From Hymenobacter metallilatus (GTDB lineage: Bacteria; Bacteroidota; Bacteroidia; Cytophagales; Hymenobacteraceae): DNA of 64,000 bases. This document shows, piece after piece, positions 3,837-54,647 of the stretch. Numbering within the stretch: position 1 is the stretch's first letter; every line of letters starts with the position of its first letter. The notes beneath the pieces are model-generated. The model was given only the letters and a program-made list of their open reading frames with translations, searched no databases and was not told the origin of the DNA. The stretch spans positions 372,001-436,000 of the forward strand of contig NZ_RWIS01000003.1 of assembly GCF_003944705.1 (NCBI RefSeq). Reading direction: 5' to 3'. Both the position numbers and the translations under genes were made by a program.

Positions 3837-4018
3837 GGCTGGAAAAACTGTGAAGGACGGCCGCGCCGCCCTGAAGGGTTTCGGGTAAAGAGGCGCAAAT
3901 ATAGCCCTCTGATTTGATGATTACAACTTCCGTTGTTATTGACTGAGTGACTGAGTGTCTGAGTAGTGCCTTTTTAATAGCTTCAGCCCAAAAAACACGC
4001 AGTTATTCAACTACTCAG

Positions 4019-4693
4019 TTACTCTAAAAGGTCCGGCCGCCGCTCCTGTGTGCGAGCCAGGGCCTGCTCATGGCGCCAGATATCAATTTTCGGAGTATTG
4101 CCCGAAAGCAGAATATCCGGTACCGCAAGGCCTCGCCATTCGGCCGGGCGGGTGTACACGGGGGGCGCCAGCAGGTTGTCCTGAAACGAGTCGCTCAGGG
4201 CCGACTCCTCGTTGCCCAGCACGCCGGGCAACAGCCGCACCACCGCGTCCACCAAAATGGCGGCCCCCAGCTCCCCTCCGCTCAGCACGTAGTCGCCTAC
4301 GCTGATTTCGTGGGTGATGTAGGCCTGCCGGATTCGCTCATCCACGCCTTTGTAATGGCCGCACAGGATCAGCAGGTTTCCCGCCAACGATAACCGATTA
4401 ACCAAGGGCTGCCGCAGCGTGTTGCCGTCGGGAGTCATATAGATAACCGCATCGTACGGTCGCTGCGCCATTAGCTCATCGAAACAGGCGGCAATAGGCT
4501 CCACACGCAGTACCATGCCGGCTCCGCCCCCAAACACATAGTCATCAATCTGACCGTGCTTATTGATGGCGTAGCGGCGCAGGTCGTGCAGCTGAATTTC
4601 GGCCAGGCCTTTCTCCTGGGCCCGCTTCACAATGGAATGGGCGAAGGGACTGACCAGCAAATCCGGCTGGCACGTTACAATGTCAATGCGCAT
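4019..4693 (-). CDS. trmD: tRNA (guanine-N1)-methyltransferase
   Basis: [13 protein letters not shown]...[14 protein letters not shown]...[14 protein letters not shown]...[16 protein letters not shown]; operon order. Confidence 0.97.
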
Positions 4694-8067: not shown

Positions 8068-8077
8068 TCTGGGGAAA

Positions 8078-8197
8078 GAATTAAAAATTAAAAATTAAAA
8101 ATTATGAATTGGCTGAATCCGAACGGTCAATTTGAGCGCATTAGGGAGCCAGTAGCGTAATTTTTAATTTTTAATTCCTCAATTTTTAATTGATTTA
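8078..8197. repeat. A/T-rich period-7 inverted arms between panB and the pseudouridine synthase gene
   Basis: gaattaaaaattaaaaatta (8078-8097) is perfectly complementary to 8158-8177; right arm tract contains panB stop. Confidence 0.85.
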
Positions 8198-9133: not shown

Positions 9134-12073
9134 TTAGTAGTTCAGGAACGTGCGGTTGCGGCTCAGCTTCAGGCTCTGGAGCAGGGTTGATTTGGCTGCA
9201 ATGGTTACGAAGTAGCCCCGGGTGGCGCCGAAGGGCCGCCAGTTCCCGTTGATCTGCCAGCAATGCAGGTCCTTGGTGAAATCCAGGGAGGTAAAAGCGG
9301 GCGTGCGGTTGATGAAGTCGTAGTTGGTGCTGAAGCCGAAGCGGAAGGTTTCGGTGAGCTTCACTGAGCCGTTCAGGTTGAGCGTAGCGGCCGTGTAGGG
9401 CGACCGGCGGGGGCGGGAAGTCAGCTCCGGCAACGGGCCCTGGTTGGCGTAGGAGGCCGTGAAGCTGGTATTCAGCTCCCAGGGAATCGAGAAATCCACG
9501 TAATCCTCGTACGGATTTATCATGCGCGGGGAGCCGAGCTGCGGGTCGTTTACCGGGGCCGCATCCCGCTGAATTGTTGATTTTTTGGTGCCCTGCGCCG
9601 GATTGAACTGGTAGGACAGAGAAGCATTGGCGGTGCTGAGGCGGGCCAGCCGGATGCGGGAAGTGGAGGGTTGGTCCTGCCACAAAAACCGGTCTTTCAG
9701 CGTACCGGTGGAGTCGCGCTGGTAAAACTCGAAGTTGGCGTTGAGCGTGACGTTGAGCTTGCGGGCCACCTGCGTGCGGAACGTTGAGGACAATGGCGCC
9801 AGTTTCAGCCGGTCGGCCGCAAAGTTGTAGCCGGTGCTGAAATCTAGCCCGTCAATCAGGCTCACCTTGTTGAAGGGCGTGTTGCCGGTGGTGTCGTTGG
9901 AGTTGCGCACCTTCATTTCCACGGCGTTCTGCAGCGAGAAGCTCAGCTGGCTGACGCGCGTGGCCGTGGGGTAGCCGTAGAGGAACCCGTTGTACTGGGG
10001 CAGCAGAAAGCCTTGGTTGTCGATGTAAGTTTGACCTTCCTCATATAGGCGGCCGGTGGCGGGGTCGCGCAGGCCGGGGGTAGCAATCCGCTCCAGCCCC
10101 GAGTTCCGGGCCGAGCTGGTGGGCGTGTAGTTGTAGTTCAGGCTGGGCGTGATTTTGTGGCGCAGCGCCTGAATCTTGTGGGTGCCCTTGCGTACAATGG
10201 TCCCGTAGAGGTTGGTGCTCATGCTGGCCCCATATGATACGGCGCTGAGACGGTTGAAGCTGGCCGTGGTATCCACCCGAATGGCTTTGGCCGTTTCGTT
10301 ATAGGAGTAGTCCAGCCGCTTGAAATACCAGATTTCGTTGTAGGTGACAGTAGGACTGAAATTGAGGTGGGCAAAATTGAAGCTGCCCAGCGTAATACCG
10401 AAATTATGGCGCATACCGGTTTGGGAGTTGCGCAGCAGCTTGCTGAGGTTGCCCAGCTTCACGGGCATAATCAGGGCCGTGTTGGAGCCGCCCAGCAGCG
10501 GAATGGCGCCGCCGTTAATCTGGCGGGCAGCAATATTATTGGACAGCTTGTTCTGGAAGGTCAGGTCGTAGGAAAAGGCCAGCTGCTCGTAGGCCTTGCG
10601 GGGCTGAATCTTCAGAATATCATACACGTACTGCCGGGCCAGCTGCGCCGATACGTCGGGCAGGGTGAAATCCATGGTGCCCGTTTGGGTGTTCTGGCTC
10701 TGGCTCAGGTTTACGCTGTAGTTGATGGGCGCGTACCGCAGCTGCTTGGAGTAGGTAACCGTGGACTGGAAGGCCGACGACAGGTAGTTCCGCACGTTGT
10801 AGGAGTTTTGGCGGAAGTAATTGTTGCTGCTCACGTTCACGTTGGCCGAAAACCGGCCGCCATTGGGGCGGGGTACGGGTGTGTGCGTCCACATCAGGGC
10901 AAAAGTTTGCTGAGAGCGGGGTACGTTGTAGGTGGGGTTGGTATTGGCATCTGTAGTACCCAGCAACCGCTCGGTGGGCTGGGAACTGTAGTTGAAAGTG
11001 AACAGGCCCTGGTAGCGGTAGCGGGTGATATACTGCATTTCCGCCGTACCGCGCCAGCCCCCAAACCGGTCGGCGTTGCCCGAGTAAATATCCCCGGTGA
11101 GGCGCACCCCAATGTGCTCATTGGCGGCCCAGTAGTAGCCTCCGTTGCGCAGGAAAAAGCCCCGGTCGGCGGCCTGCCCGAAGGTTGGAATAATCAGGCC
11201 CGAGGAGCGGCGCTTGTTTTTGGGCGAGGGGAAATACCCGAACAGAAAGCCCAGCGGCGTGGGTATATCCCCGATAACCAGGTTGAAGGGTCCCGTCACC
11301 ACGCTCTGGCCCGGTATCACCTTCATCTTGGAGGCGTTGATGTAGAAGTGCGGGTGCTCGAGGTTGCAGGTAGTGTAGCGCCCGTGCACCCCGAACATTT
11401 CGTTCAGCTGGTTTTTTTTGATGGTTTCGGCGTGGATGTAGCCTTCGCCTTGCTGGGTTACCACGTCGGTAATGCGGCCCCGCTTGCTTTTGATGTTGTA
11501 GTCGATGCGGCCGGCCTGGTAGGTTTCGGCGCCCTGCTTGAACACGGGGCGGTCCTGCACGCGGCCGGTAGTATCCTTGGCTCCCTCGGCCGTTACCAGG
11601 TTTTTGCTGTAATCCACCGTAATCAGGGCGGCTTTCAGGTTCATCTCCCCATAATCCACGCTGGCCTTGTCGTAGAGAATGGCGCGCTTATTCTGCACCT
11701 CAAACCGGATGGAGTCCTGGGCCTTGTATTTCACGGTGCTTTCCACCGCGCCCTTGCGGCCCCCGGCCGCCACCCGCACCGAGTCGGGCGTGCCCGACAC
11801 CAGGCCCGTAGTGTCGCGCACGGGCCCGGCGGGGGGCGGGTTCAGGATTTTGGGGGCCGTGGTTCGCACGTCGGCGGGTACGTTGGTAGTACCCGGGCGC
11901 TGCTGGGCGGCAGCCGGCAAGCCCAGGCTCAGCACCAGCGCAAGCAGGCCGGTAAGCCGCAGCAGCGGCCCGAACACACGCAATACAGAAAGGAACACAG
12001 GCGCGAATGAGGCCACGTAGTTTTTATCGTTTATTTTGTGGCGGTTTGCAAAGGTAGCGGGTCGCTGCCCCAA
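9134..12073 (-). CDS. LptD-like outer membrane LPS-assembly protein; N-terminal start uncertain
   Basis: Long outer-membrane beta-barrel after OstA-like domain (YDKASVDYGEMNLKAALITVDYSKNLVTAEG); Cytophagales LptD-like architecture. Confidence 0.8.
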   Translation of the reverse strand: MGQRPATFANRHKINDKNYVASFAPVFLSVLRVFGPLLRLTGLLALVLSLGLPAAAQQRPGTTNVPADVRTTAPKILNPPPAGPVRDTTGLVSGTPDSVRVAAGGRKGAVESTVKYKAQDSIRFEVQNKRAILYDKASVDYGEMNLKAALITVDYSKNLVTAEGAKDTTGRVQDRPVFKQGAETYQAGRIDYNIKSKRGRITDVVTQQGEGYIHAETIKKNQLNEMFGVHGRYTTCNLEHPHFYINASKMKVIPGQSVVTGPFNLVIGDIPTPLGFLFGYFPSPKNKRRSSGLIIPTFGQAADRGFFLRNGGYYWAANEHIGVRLTGDIYSGNADRFGGWRGTAEMQYITRYRYQGLFTFNYSSQPTERLLGTTDANTNPTYNVPRSQQTFALMWTHTPVPRPNGGRFSANVNVSSNNYFRQNSYNVRNYLSSAFQSTVTYSKQLRYAPINYSVNLSQSQNTQTGTMDFTLPDVSAQLARQYVYDILKIQPRKAYEQLAFSYDLTFQNKLSNNIAARQINGGAIPLLGGSNTALIMPVKLGNLSKLLRNSQTGMRHNFGITLGSFNFAHLNFSPTVTYNEIWYFKRLDYSYNETAKAIRVDTTASFNRLSAVSYGASMSTNLYGTIVRKGTHKIQALRHKITPSLNYNYTPTSSARNSGLERIATPGLRDPATGRLYEEGQTYIDNQGFLLPQYNGFLYGYPTATRVSQLSFSLQNAVEMKVRNSNDTTGNTPFNKVSLIDGLDFSTGYNFAADRLKLAPLSSTFRTQVARKLNVTLNANFEFYQRDSTGTLKDRFLWQDQPSTSRIRLARLSTANASLSYQFNPAQGTKKSTIQRDAAPVNDPQLGSPRMINPYEDYVDFSIPWELNTSFTASYANQGPLPELTSRPRRSPYTAATLNLNGSVKLTETFRFGFSTNYDFINRTPAFTSLDFTKDLHCWQINGNWRPFGATRGYFVTIAAKSTLLQSLKLSRNRTFLNY

Positions 12074-14027: not shown

Positions 14028-14181
14028 TTCTGCCCAAAGGTGAAATAGTGAGATGGTGAAAAGGTGGGCTTGCTGTGCTGATGACTTACGCGGGGCGAAT
14101 GGCCCGGCACAAGTTGCCGAAACGGCAAACTCACCCTTTCACCATCTCACTATTTCACTGCTCCCACCCATTCCCACCCCA

Positions 14182-21489: not shown

Positions 21490-22149
21490 TCACCATTTCA
21501 GTATCTCACCAATGGTGTAAGTTAGGATGTAGTCGGGAGTTGGGCGCATATACTGGATCTGGTGTTGGCTGCGGGAGTTTTCGAGCAGCAGGTGTCCCGT
21601 CAGCACACCAGCCTCCCGCAGCTCAAACGGGCTGAGCAACAAGTGCTCTTTAAACACCAGGCCCCGGCGGCTATGCAGCTTGTATAACGTCTCCTTGGCG
21701 CTCCAATACAGACAATACTTCGATGCGTCGCTGCCGGCGTCGGCCAGCTCGGATTCCGCCAGAACCCGGTGGGCCAACTTTTTAGCTTTCGGGCGTATCA
21801 TTTCAATATCTATGCCAACCCGCTCATGGGCGGAAAGCACCGCCGCTACCCACTCACCCGAGTGCGACAAAGAAATGCCGTAGGCAGGCAACTCCTGGAA
21901 GTAGGGCCGGCCGTTTTCATCGTTGTGCAGGGTGGCCGGGGCATCGTTCAGCTCCCGCAGCAGCTGGTGGGCCAGCACCCGGCCGGCCAGCCACTGCCGG
22001 GCCCGTAGCTCGTCGCGGCCCTGAGGAAAGCGGGCCAGGTAGTGGGCCTGCGCCGGCAGCTGGGCCCAAAGCGCCTCGGCTGGTTCCGTCAGGTGCCAGA
22101 GCCCCAGCACGGCCGTTTGGGAAAGAGGGGAGAGGGAGTGAAGGGGCAA
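21490..22149 (-). CDS. 4'-phosphopantetheinyl transferase superfamily protein
   Basis: ISLSHSGEWVAAVLSAHERVGIDIEMIRPK...YWSAKETLYKL. Confidence 0.9.
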   Translation of the reverse strand: MPLHSLSPLSQTAVLGLWHLTEPAEALWAQLPAQAHYLARFPQGRDELRARQWLAGRVLAHQLLRELNDAPATLHNDENGRPYFQELPAYGISLSHSGEWVAAVLSAHERVGIDIEMIRPKAKKLAHRVLAESELADAGSDASKYCLYWSAKETLYKLHSRRGLVFKEHLLLSPFELREAGVLTGHLLLENSRSQHQIQYMRPTPDYILTYTIGEILKW

Positions 22150-22233
22150 AAGGCAAAGGAATGAAGGAGTGAATAAGTGAAGGTACTACCAGAACGTGTA
22201 CCCTGGCGCGCAGCTCCGGTCGTCGTTGTTCTT

Positions 22234-22329
22234 GTACCCCGAAGCTGTGCTTCGGCCCGCGTCAGGGACTAAACTCATTATCTGGGTTGATTAGCCTCTC
22301 ACGTGAGCCGAAGCACAGCTTCGGGGTAC
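22234..22329. repeat. intergenic inverted repeat, 23-bp perfect arms
   Basis: gtaccccgaagctgtgcttcggc / gccgaagcacagcttcggggtac. Confidence 0.9.
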
Positions 22330-22367
22330 ACGTTCTATCTTCGCGCAGTCATCTATTCCTGTTACCC

Positions 22368-24869: not shown

Positions 24870-24980
24870 CTACCCTAGGTATAATAGGCTAACAGCTGAG
24901 GGCCGTCGTTCTACCGAAGGAAGGTAGAATGGCGGCCCTTATTGCGTTTAGATGCTTACATTCAAGTAGATAAAATATTA

Positions 24981-25054
24981 TACGAAATAAATCGTAGATA
25001 TTTCTTGGATGTACGACAAGCTTCGTATATGTTTGATGTACGAACTGCTTCGTA
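24981..25054. promoter_or_regulatory. three TACGA-N6-TCGTA palindromes, candidate BlaI/MecI-type operators
   Basis: TACGAAATAAATCGTA (24981-24996), TACGACAAGCTTCGTA (25012-25027), TACGAACTGCTTCGTA (25039-25054), upstream of the blaI-like gene. Confidence 0.75.
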
Positions 25055-25161
25055 GCTGGTTTTGCCTGGGGTATTCCGTGGTTTCCTGCGCGTAGGAGCT
25101 GGCCCAGGCAACGGTGGCGGGTGGTTCGGTAGTCCCATACAGTACCCTTTAGTTTGGTCCC

Positions 25162-25581
25162 ATGAGTAAATCCCCCCTTCCGAAACCTACCGAATCGGAG
25201 CTGGAAATTCTGCAGGTGCTCTGGCAGCATGGCCCCAGCACCGTCCGCTTCGTGAACGACGAGCTGAACCGGCGCCGTGAAGTAGGCTACACCACCTCCC
25301 TGAAGCTACTGCAACTGATGCTGGACAAAGGGCTGGTGCTACGCGACGACGACAGCAAAACCCACGTGTACCGGGCCGCCGTGCGCGAAGAAGAAACCCA
25401 GGGCCTGCTGCTCGACCGATTCGTGGATTCCACCTTCGGCGGCTCGGCCATGAAGCTGGTAATGCAGGCCCTGGGCAACCGCCGCACCTCCCGCGAGGAG
25501 CTGGCCCAGATTCGCCGCCTGCTCAACGACATCGAAATTCAGAACGACACGACTCCACCCTCAACCGACGAAGCCCCATGA
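25162..25581 (+). CDS. BlaI/MecI/CopY family transcriptional repressor
   Basis: PTESELEILQVLWQHGPSTVRFVNDELNRRREVGYTTSLKLLQLMLDKGLV. Confidence 0.93.
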   Translation: MSKSPLPKPTESELEILQVLWQHGPSTVRFVNDELNRRREVGYTTSLKLLQLMLDKGLVLRDDDSKTHVYRAAVREEETQGLLLDRFVDSTFGGSAMKLVMQALGNRRTSREELAQIRRLLNDIEIQNDTTPPSTDEAP

Positions 25582-49370: not shown

Positions 49371-49494
49371 TGGTGGTGAAATTGTGAGTTTGTGAAATTG
49401 TGAGTTAGGGGGTGAAATGCGTGGTTTTGTTGTACGGACGCAGCACATGCGCCCTGAACATCAATTCACCATTTCACCACTTCACCATTTCACT
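49371..49494. repeat. GTGAAAT/ATTTCAC inverted arms between mutase subunit genes
   Basis: tggtggtgaaattgtgagtttgtgaaattgtgagtt ... aattcaccatttcaccacttcaccatttcac. Confidence 0.85.
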
Positions 49495-52824: not shown

Positions 52825-53586
52825 ATGCAGTTTCTTCGTTCCCGCGTAGCAGCGCTGGGCCTGTTGGCAGCAGTGGCAGTGGCTTCATCCTGCCAGCGCG
52901 GTGCTTACGTGCCCAAGGCCCAACTGGCTCCTGTTACAGCTCAGCCCGTAGGCAGCACTTTGGCCGACAATGCCCAGGCCGCGGCCACCATTGCGCCCTA
53001 CCGCCAGCGGGTAACCGAGCAGATGACGGCCGTATTGGGGCAGGCACCGGCCGCCATTACCAAGAACAGCGGCGAGTCGCCCTTGGCCAATTACGTGGGC
53101 GATATTCAGCGGGTACGGGCCAGCCGGGAGCTGGGCAAACCGGTCGATTTGGGCGTAATGTCGAACGGGGGGCTCCGGGCACCGCTACCCGCCGGGGCCG
53201 TTACCATGGGCTCCGTGTTTGAGCTGATGCCCTTCGAAAACGAACTGGTGGTGCTGGATGCCTCCGGGGCGGTGGTGCAGCAGCTGTTCGACTACGCGGC
53301 TCGCATCAAAATGGCTGTTTCAGGTGCTACCTACACCGTTACGGCCGATGGTAAGCCACAGAACATCCTCATCAACGGCCAGCCCTTCGACGCAGCCCGC
53401 ACGTATACCATTGCCATTTCCGACTACCTGGCTGGTGGCGGCGACAATATGGTATTCTTTAAGCCCATTAAGCCCCGGGGTACGGGCGTACTGCTGCGCT
53501 CTGCCATTGCCGAGTACATTCAGGAGCAGACCAGACAGGGCAAATCCATCGAGGCCAAAGTAGAAGGCCGGGTGAAGAGTAACTGA
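52825..53586 (+). CDS. 5'-nucleotidase C-terminal domain lipoprotein
   Basis: Lipobox-like ASSCQRG; SPLANYVGDIQRVRA, GVMSNGGLRAPLPAGAVTMGSVFELMPFENELVVLDASG, YTIAISDYLAGGGDNM. Confidence 0.88.
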   Translation: MQFLRSRVAALGLLAAVAVASSCQRGAYVPKAQLAPVTAQPVGSTLADNAQAAATIAPYRQRVTEQMTAVLGQAPAAITKNSGESPLANYVGDIQRVRASRELGKPVDLGVMSNGGLRAPLPAGAVTMGSVFELMPFENELVVLDASGAVVQQLFDYAARIKMAVSGATYTVTADGKPQNILINGQPFDAARTYTIAISDYLAGGGDNMVFFKPIKPRGTGVLLRSAIAEYIQEQTRQGKSIEAKVEGRVKSN

Positions 53587-53716
53587 GCAACTGCGTATCT
53601 GAATAATCGTTCTACTGGCGCAAATGACGCAGGTATCCGTTCGATTATTCAATTCGTCAGTCAGTCAAGTGCTTAGCTACTCCATTCTCAGTTACTCAAC
53701 TACTCAGTTACTCTTC
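53574..53716. repeat. inverted arms joining the stop and start codons of adjacent genes
   Basis: gaagagtaactgag (53574-53587, contains TGA stop) perfectly complementary to ctcagttactcttc (53703-53716), 1 nt before ATG. Confidence 0.9.
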
Positions 53717-53717
53717 C

Positions 53718-54647
53718 ATGAAGCGTCGCGAATTTCTGAAATATACCGGCCTGGGGGCTGCTTCTGTGGGGCTGCTGGGGGCTGCGGCACTGCCGGCTGC
53801 GGCTGCCGATAAAAAGGCCGTGCGCCTTACCATTCTGCACACCAACGACATGCACTCCCGCATCGAGCCTTTCCCCAGCAATGCGGCTCAGTGGGCGGGC
53901 ATGGGTGGCATGGCCCGGCGCGCTACGCTCATCGAGCAAATCCGGCAGCAGGAGCCCAACGTGCTGCTGCTCGATTCCGGCGACATCTGGCAGGGCACGC
54001 CGTATTTTAACTTCTTCCAGGGGGAGCTGGAGTACAAGCTCATGAGCCAGATGGCTTATGATGCCAGCACCCTCGGCAACCACGACTTCGACAATGGCCT
54101 GGAGGGCCTGCAGAAGCAGCTGCCCAACGCCACGTTTCCCTTCCTGATTGCCAACTACGACTTCTCCCAAACCATTCTGGCGGGCAAGTTTCAGCCGTAT
54201 AAGGTGTTTGAGAAGCAGGGAATCCGCATTGGTGTGTTTGGGCTGGGCATCGAAATGGCCGGACTGGTGGCCGACAAAAACTTTGGAGCCACCAAGTACC
54301 TCGACCCCGTAGCCGTGGCCAAAGACATGGTAACCAAGCTGCGCGGCCCCGAGCGGTGCGACCTGGTTATCTGCTTGTCCCACCTGGGCTACAAGTACGA
54401 GTCGGCCAAGCTCGACGACCGGAAACTGGCGGCCCAGGTTAGCGGCATCGACCTGATCCTGGGGGGGCATACCCACACTTTCCTAGAGAAGCCCGAGCCC
54501 ATTGCCAGCCCCAACGGCCAGCCGACGCTCATCAACCAGGTGGGCTGGTCCGGCATCAACCTGGGCCGCCTCGACTATGCCTTTGAGCACGGTACCCGCC
54601 GCCCCACGGTGGCCGCCTCGGCGGTAGTGCCCATCCGGCAGGCCTAG
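53718..54647 (+). CDS. metallophosphoesterase (5'-nucleotidase N-terminal type)
   Basis: LTILHTNDMHSRIEPFP, LLLDSGDIWQGTPYFN, LGNHDFDNG, LILGGHTHTF; twin-Arg-like absent, MKRREFLKYTG N-terminus. Confidence 0.92.
   Translation: MKRREFLKYTGLGAASVGLLGAAALPAAAADKKAVRLTILHTNDMHSRIEPFPSNAAQWAGMGGMARRATLIEQIRQQEPNVLLLDSGDIWQGTPYFNFFQGELEYKLMSQMAYDASTLGNHDFDNGLEGLQKQLPNATFPFLIANYDFSQTILAGKFQPYKVFEKQGIRIGVFGLGIEMAGLVADKNFGATKYLDPVAVAKDMVTKLRGPERCDLVICLSHLGYKYESAKLDDRKLAAQVSGIDLILGGHTHTFLEKPEPIASPNGQPTLINQVGWSGINLGRLDYAFEHGTRRPTVAASAVVPIRQA

Follow-up and report, generated by a model that had tools for sequence, protein, structure and literature searches.

Intergenic palindromes directly behind genes in Hymenobacter and their replacement between related species

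The spacer between a 5'-nucleotidase gene and a metallophosphoesterase gene of Hymenobacter metallilatus contains a real inverted repeat, which is one of many in Hymenobacter located directly behind genes. These palindromes are gained, lost, or swapped for other families within species pairs of about 90 to 95% DNA identity. We explain them, with a probability of roughly 0.6, as abundant intergenic palindromes behind genes that are similar to REP/BIME and MITE elements and are often replaced, the focal spacer containing one copy. In-place template switching between the arms and a role at the 3' end are live alternatives, neither of which excludes this explanation. The element class is larger than the first-pass annotation of this DNA had recognized: about a quarter of the spacers in a 24% sample of the genome carry such palindromes.

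The focal spacer and other elements in the window

“The window” is the whole stretch of DNA that was analyzed, with a length of 64,000 nucleotides, and all positions in Table 1 refer to it. The coordinates of two exact 14-nt arms, the left one containing the TGA stop codon of the upstream gene and the right one ending 1 nt ahead of the ATG of the downstream gene, were verified. The outer arm pair could be extended to 29 nt at 83%, and a perfect inner pair of 10 nt was nested within it. A period-8 tandem repeat, CTCAGTTA, spanned positions 53687 to 53713 as part of the right arm. The RNA fold of positions 53560 to 53730 had −49.3 kcal/mol and a z value of −2.7, with 2 of 200 shuffled sequences being equally good. 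None of the Rfam models matched positions 53400 to 53900 at an E value of ≤1, and a conserved RNA family was rejected for the focal spacer on this basis. The metallophosphoesterase was 94% identical to its counterpart in H. rigui.

Table 1. Positions of the genes and inverted arms in the window
Feature	Position	Strand	Remarks
Upstream gene, 5'-nucleotidase C-terminal domain protein	52825..53586	+	Pfam PF02872, E 1.8e-25
Left (stop-side) arm, octamer type GAGTAACT	53574..53602	+	Exact 14-nt part GAAGAGTAACTGAG, 53574-53587, includes the TGA at 53584-53586
Inner left arm TGAATAATCG	53600..53609	+	Resembles the AATCGTT core of the genome's other GAGTA-type elements
Inner right arm CGATTATTCA	53642..53651	+	
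Right (start-side) arm, complementary to the left arm	53688..53716	+	Exact 14-nt part CTCAGTTACTCTTC, 53703-53716, exact complement of GAAGAGTAACTGAG
Downstream gene, calcineurin-like metallophosphoesterase	53718..54647	+	PF00149; array stops 1 nt short of the ATG at 53718
GTGAAATG octamer element between the mutase subunits	49376..49493	−	Arms 49376-49406 and 49465-49493
AATTAAA heptamer element, panB/pseudouridine synthase gene	8076..8191	−	Arms 8076-8110 and 8158-8191
GGTGAAAT octamer element	14039..14159	+	Arms 14039-14066 and 14130-14159; behind a conventional terminator, not stop-anchored
GAGTAACT-type arrays between the trmD stop (4019-4021) and the rplS promoter	3940..4024	−	

Further boundaries of the window had been named as having the same geometry. 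Clear locus-specific inverted pairs were present at the panB/pseudouridine synthase boundary and between the mutase subunits, and the one-sided arrays at position 21490 and before folB were also found. At trmD/rplS, only the motif was shared, and the start-side array ended more than 100 nt away from the rplS start, with the rplS promoter located between array and start. The pairs proposed for WD40/DivIVA and mlaD/carboxylase remained below the score of 14 used as cutoff.

Some other sequences of the window were recorded in addition. A GTACCCCGAAGCTGTGCTTCGGC inverted pair at positions 22230 to 22340 is among several longer palindrome families of the genome. Imperfect TACGAA/TTCGTA repeats at positions 24980 to 25055, upstream of the gene at 25162, were kept in the genomes G081 and G036 and appear to be operator-like palindromes. 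The promoter-like box TATATTTGCGCC of rplS (window positions 3837 to 3930, loci L113 to L142) was strongly conserved in 30 species, as was a GC-rich inverted leader, GGGCGGCGCGGCCGTCC, in the same species; box and inverted leader together may be a ribosomal-protein leader.

Abundance of inverted pairs and their position relative to stop and start codons

The sample comprised 1.256 Mb (24%) of the Hymenobacter genome (5.2 Mb, 60% GC) in the form of stretches that included the window. Genes were called with a home-made hexamer model, so that stop codons are certain and start codons are predicted. Scoring of inverted pairs used a chosen threshold of 14, and the minimum loop length considered was 19 to 20 nt for G000, compared to 12 nt for the species pairs. 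As the first-pass annotation had suggested, inverted arms were searched in this sample against shuffled controls, and they were far from chance: 201 of the 863 intergenic regions in this 1.26 Mb contained an inverted pair with a score of at least 14, compared to 0.5 expected from the shuffles. The pairs included long REP-like families plus several short-period families, such as GTTGYYR, GTGAAATG, GAGTAACT, AATTAAA, GGTAGTA/GGATGAA, and AGCTGTT, and about 64 of the 201 spacers had short-period arms. Periods of 7, 8, 14, 16, and 21 were in excess in spacers, with no such excess in genes or shuffled spacers, and arrays numbered 119 in real spacers compared to 1 in shuffled spacers.

An unbiased evaluation of complementarity picked loci by the periodicity of their ends alone and scored the spacer ends together thereafter. 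The score of an arm with its own partner was 20.5 at 24 codirectional loci and 35.6 at 5 convergent loci, compared to 9.7 and 13.9, respectively, with the partners from other loci. The locus-specific complementarity of the arms is real. The composition of the spacers differs from that of the genes, which might have allowed chance repeats in low-complexity spacers, but the results of the shuffling and the excess for the own partner rule this out, leaving chance a practically negligible probability.

The short-period elements were mutually unlike. Their median best similarity was 0.31 of the length, and only 1 of the 64 was above 0.7, which rules out one mobile family with a single master copy for these elements. 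The pattern AGTTGTYAGTTGYTNGTTGT occurred in 3 of 118 genomes spread across the phylum, with 44 copies in this genome compared to 2 for the reversed control. This family is patchy and not universal.

Anchoring of the arms to both stop and start codons had been proposed, and the stop side of this proposal was confirmed, with a distance of not more than 5 nt to the stop codon for 24 of the 47 short-period codirectional elements, compared to a mean of 7.4 and a maximum of 17 in 2,000 random placements. On the start side, the signal was weak, with 11 of the 47 within 5 nt and a mean of 7.4 in the null model. Start anchoring as a trait of the class was rejected, since it did not go beyond the effect of short spacers and was near chance in spacers longer than 150 nt. 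When the arrays alone were considered in five genomes, start proximity was higher than under uniform placement in no other spacers than those of 80 to 150 nt; in spacers longer than 150 nt, proximity was 4 compared to 3.3 expected for the start and 9 compared to 3.2 expected for the stop. Short-period elements were present in 14 of 146 convergent, 47 of 558 codirectional, and 3 of 159 divergent spacers. The definition of the class by a stop-to-start geometry therefore fails, because convergent copies were as common as codirectional ones, the start proximity disappeared in spacers above 150 nt, and the rplS promoter lies between array and start at trmD/rplS. What anchors the class is the gene end, with arms adjoining or including the stop codon, and not a pair of stop and start codons.

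This result needs to be considered when a functional stop-to-start element is evaluated, in which a stem over the stop and the start codon would mediate translational coupling or intercistronic RNA protection. A 14-bp stem closes the focal spacer, the start-side arms are G-poor (8% G), and operon boundaries retain palindromes from species to species while the sequence is altered, all of which would agree with such an element. On the other hand, convergent genes, which offer no start codon, have these arms between them just as often, no start anchoring above the free-space null was visible, a separate promoter follows the array ahead of the rplS start at trmD/rplS, and the focal spacers of 10 to 33 nt in some species have no arms. 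Translational coupling is impossible as a role for the convergent copies and is not supported as the role that defines the class, making this element an improbable explanation overall.

The palindromes may act mainly as bidirectional transcription terminators or stabilizers of 3' ends that are swapped between strains by recombination as cassettes. Palindromes with a score of at least 14 were enriched between convergent genes (68 of 146 spacers), where near-perfect short-period arms occurred, and the arrays at trmD/rplS are located between the trmD stop and the rplS promoter. There was also a weak tendency of palindromes to take the place of conventional terminators, although their mutual exclusion was only marginal, with odds ratios of 0.49 (P = 0.054) for convergent and 0.61 (P = 0.11) for codirectional spacers. 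An obvious U-tract was not found in the short-period elements of the spacers that were read, and many elements are within operons, both speaking against this possibility. It can nevertheless be true together with the replacement of abundant palindromes, the confidences in the two overlap, and it can be held tentatively.

The location of the arms may be understood from their sequence when a palindrome inserts into a short spacer behind a stop codon. The outgoing arm contains TAA, TAG, or TGA, and with a period that cannot be divided by three, any reading frame entering the arm should stop within a few units. A stop codon would be found within the arm because any frame entering it closes after these few units; the stop-triplet density of the stop-side arms was about 2-fold that of their complement. 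If the original spacer was 10 to 33 nt long, the far arm would necessarily end beside the start codon. The stop-to-start geometry of the focal spacer would thus result from its compactness because a palindrome of about 100 bp must touch both codons. After transcription, the 3' end of the upstream gene would carry a long hairpin formed by the palindrome.

Variation of the same boundaries between species

The spacers at the focal boundary were 10 to 17 nt in Pontibacter and 27 to 33 nt in several Hymenobacter species, and some of these short spacers of 10 to 33 nt carried no arms. In many other species, they were about 75 to 270 nt with differing arm families, among them GAGTAACT, GAATGTG, GTGCTGAT, and others. 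Scores of 12 or more were reached by all nine focal-boundary spacers of two other genera, Rufibacter and Sabulibacter, which contained units like GGAGATTT. The mutase boundary contained a dozen or so unrelated palindromes in 28 species, reaching from stop to start and including REP types, and a few of the 28 had no palindrome. In 30 species, promoter and leader of rplS were conserved, and the variable region with the arrays was located between the trmD stop and this promoter.

A change of sequence with kept complementarity had been noticed between different loci, and it was confirmed when a single boundary was compared between species. Own partners scored better than those from other species at the focal boundary (11.2 compared to 7.7, and 12.1 compared to 7.0 over 54 species), the mutase boundary (16.8 compared to 7.4), and trmD/rplS (10.1 compared to 7.9), in each case with 0 of 5,000 permutations as good, although the phylogenetic dependence of the ortholog windows means that the permutation P values overstate the evidence. 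Complementarity that is kept without conservation of the sequence mimics RNA covariation and can be produced by replacement of whole palindromes.

Replacement was followed in two syntenic pairs of species, G009/G071 with an identity of about 94% and G081/G036 with one of about 90%, with counts that cover all palindromes, the short-period ones included, at loci unscreened for recombination of the flanking genes. When one species had a palindrome not shared by its partner, the partner had a different one in 26 of 36 cases; when one species had none, the partner had one in 7 of 95 cases (P = 3e-13). In non-alignable spacers only, the values were 26 of 36 compared to 5 of 29 (P = 1.4e-5), and for the codirectional loci of G009/G071 alone, 13 of 17 compared to 3 of 35 (P = 1.5e-6). 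The effect in this pair was also visible with matched lengths. As an example, G000 and G081 had GGTGA arms around a REP pair, and the sister species G036 had only a GTTG element. The slot occupancy in the species pairs also agrees with a function as terminators or 3'-end stabilizers. A palindrome that persists despite a swapped sequence suggests that either the hairpin is useful, as may be the case in 3'-end protection or termination, or the spacers are preferred target sites.

The arms themselves changed less than the loops in alignable spacers, with 44 substitutions at 1,080 positions compared to 40 at 535 (P = 0.006), and four double compensating changes were found at four loci, both counts including a few ordinary terminators. 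Mismatches changed into paired positions 13 times in one species pair. The paired arms are not always altered together because, at one locus, one arm had lost a heptamer and the other arm was unchanged.

These observations bear on template switching in place, in which hairpin copying of arm onto arm plus slippage of 7- to 8-nt units would let palindromes grow outward to the coding sequence until the arms end at stop and start. It would account for arms that are unique to a locus but self-complementary and that occupy whole spacers of 80 to 150 nt, and also for the four compensating double changes and the 13 mismatch-to-paired changes within one species pair. Occurrence of the same unit families at many loci and in other genera is unexpected for de novo copying, and the heptamer lost from one arm was not followed by the other, leaving template switching rather unlikely. 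A further point in its favor comes from the spacer of an EVE-domain gene (locus L185, gene at 9748) in G009, where octamer arms of the type GGTGGATT flank a terminator/promoter middle common to relatives without the stop-side arm. Simple insertion does not account for these arms around a shared middle.

Among the relatives at this locus (L200 to L215), G072, G020, G099, and G071 had the start-side array only, and whole palindromes were present in G064, G056, G039, and G066. A scan for other paired complementary insertions around a homologous middle yielded mostly alignment artifacts, with the exception of the EVE-gene locus.

The insertion of MITE-like families at gene boundaries, which the first-pass annotation had given as its alternative, is the better fit, considering the compact spacers of 10 to 33 nt and the exchange of palindromes between families. 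Nearly unique short-period arms stand against the replacement of abundant palindromes as favored here: since no short-period element is a copy of another, replacement by a homogeneous family can at most be part of the explanation. It is conceivable, with some reserve, that the boundaries are persistent palindrome slots in which arms with a period of 7 to 8 nt originate or are restored when one arm serves as the template for the other, giving each locus its private self-complementary sequence. If so, a long hairpin would stay in place at gene boundaries of the Hymenobacteraceae, and a few percent of divergence would be enough for its sequence to be exchanged completely. The result for the slots makes it testable if REP-like palindromes are tolerated parasites or if a hairpin is selected whatever its sequence.

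Comparison with known repeats and terminators

MITEs such as Nezha or Correia/NEMIS are small elements with inverted ends near genes that are transcribed and can give hairpins. The elements described here are likewise small intergenic palindromes with inverted ends beside genes. They do not share a conserved terminal inverted repeat common to the copies, as indicated by the median best similarity given above, and form no homogeneous family; transposase genes were not found beside the short-period elements. A literature search for intergenic inverted repeats of Hymenobacter found none.

Intrinsic (Rho-independent) terminators also form a hairpin behind a stop codon. The loops of the Hymenobacter elements, however, are about 20 to 100 nt, and the arms are long and not GC-rich. 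The focal loop is 85 to 115 nt, with no U-tract following the right arm, and none was seen in the other short-period elements that were read.

REPs are mostly located downstream of genes, the ends of the GTAG REPs supply TAG stop codons, and the GTAG and CGTC super-families of REP/BIME elements are numerous short palindromes, often in head-to-head pairs (BMC Genomics 2013, PMC3733652). The short-period elements resemble them in being situated behind genes and rare between divergent genes. They differ by the 7- to 8-nt period, the long loops, and a sequence that changes from locus to locus with self-complementarity, and the focal arms as well as other short-period arms have no GTAG or CGTC tag at a fixed end. 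Moreover, they are nearly unique instead of being a homogeneous family that includes a RAYT gene with the family's repeat on both sides.

Other palindromes in the genome do carry GTAG or CGTC tags, and the pairs of the CGTCATGCTGAGC.. type and the GTAGCGCGCAGCTCCGCTTCGCGC repeats around a Y1_Tnp gene look like true REPs. A RAYT-like gene (Y1_Tnp, PF01797) at L173:1225-1830 (G000 contig C27, near 137758) has multiple GTAG-tagged palindromes, GTAGCGCGCAGCTCCGCTTCGCGCACGAGC, on both sides and is a candidate REP-transposase unit in Hymenobacter. A second Y1_Tnp gene (L174, G000 contig C30, near 155588) has long repeats with CACTCGGCATAGCCGAGCGAGTG and GCAGCTGTGCTGCGCGCGCCTG on both sides. Mobilization of the short-period elements by RAYT was rejected, since these two of the three RAYT-like hits (the third being L175) are flanked by other repeats.

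In Beggiatoaceae, Cyanobacteria, and a few Bacteroidetes, direct repeats of the heptamer TAACTGA occur in intergenic regions beside start codons; one Bacteroidetes set is directly behind a stop codon in the reverse orientation, and the repeats are described as one-sided and direct, the main genome having just one inverted case (MacGregor 2015, PMC4679880). The arm GAGTAACTGAG from Hymenobacter contains TAACTGA. In contrast to the published repeats, paired inverted arms are the rule in Hymenobacter, with many unit families and a period of 8 at the focal boundary.
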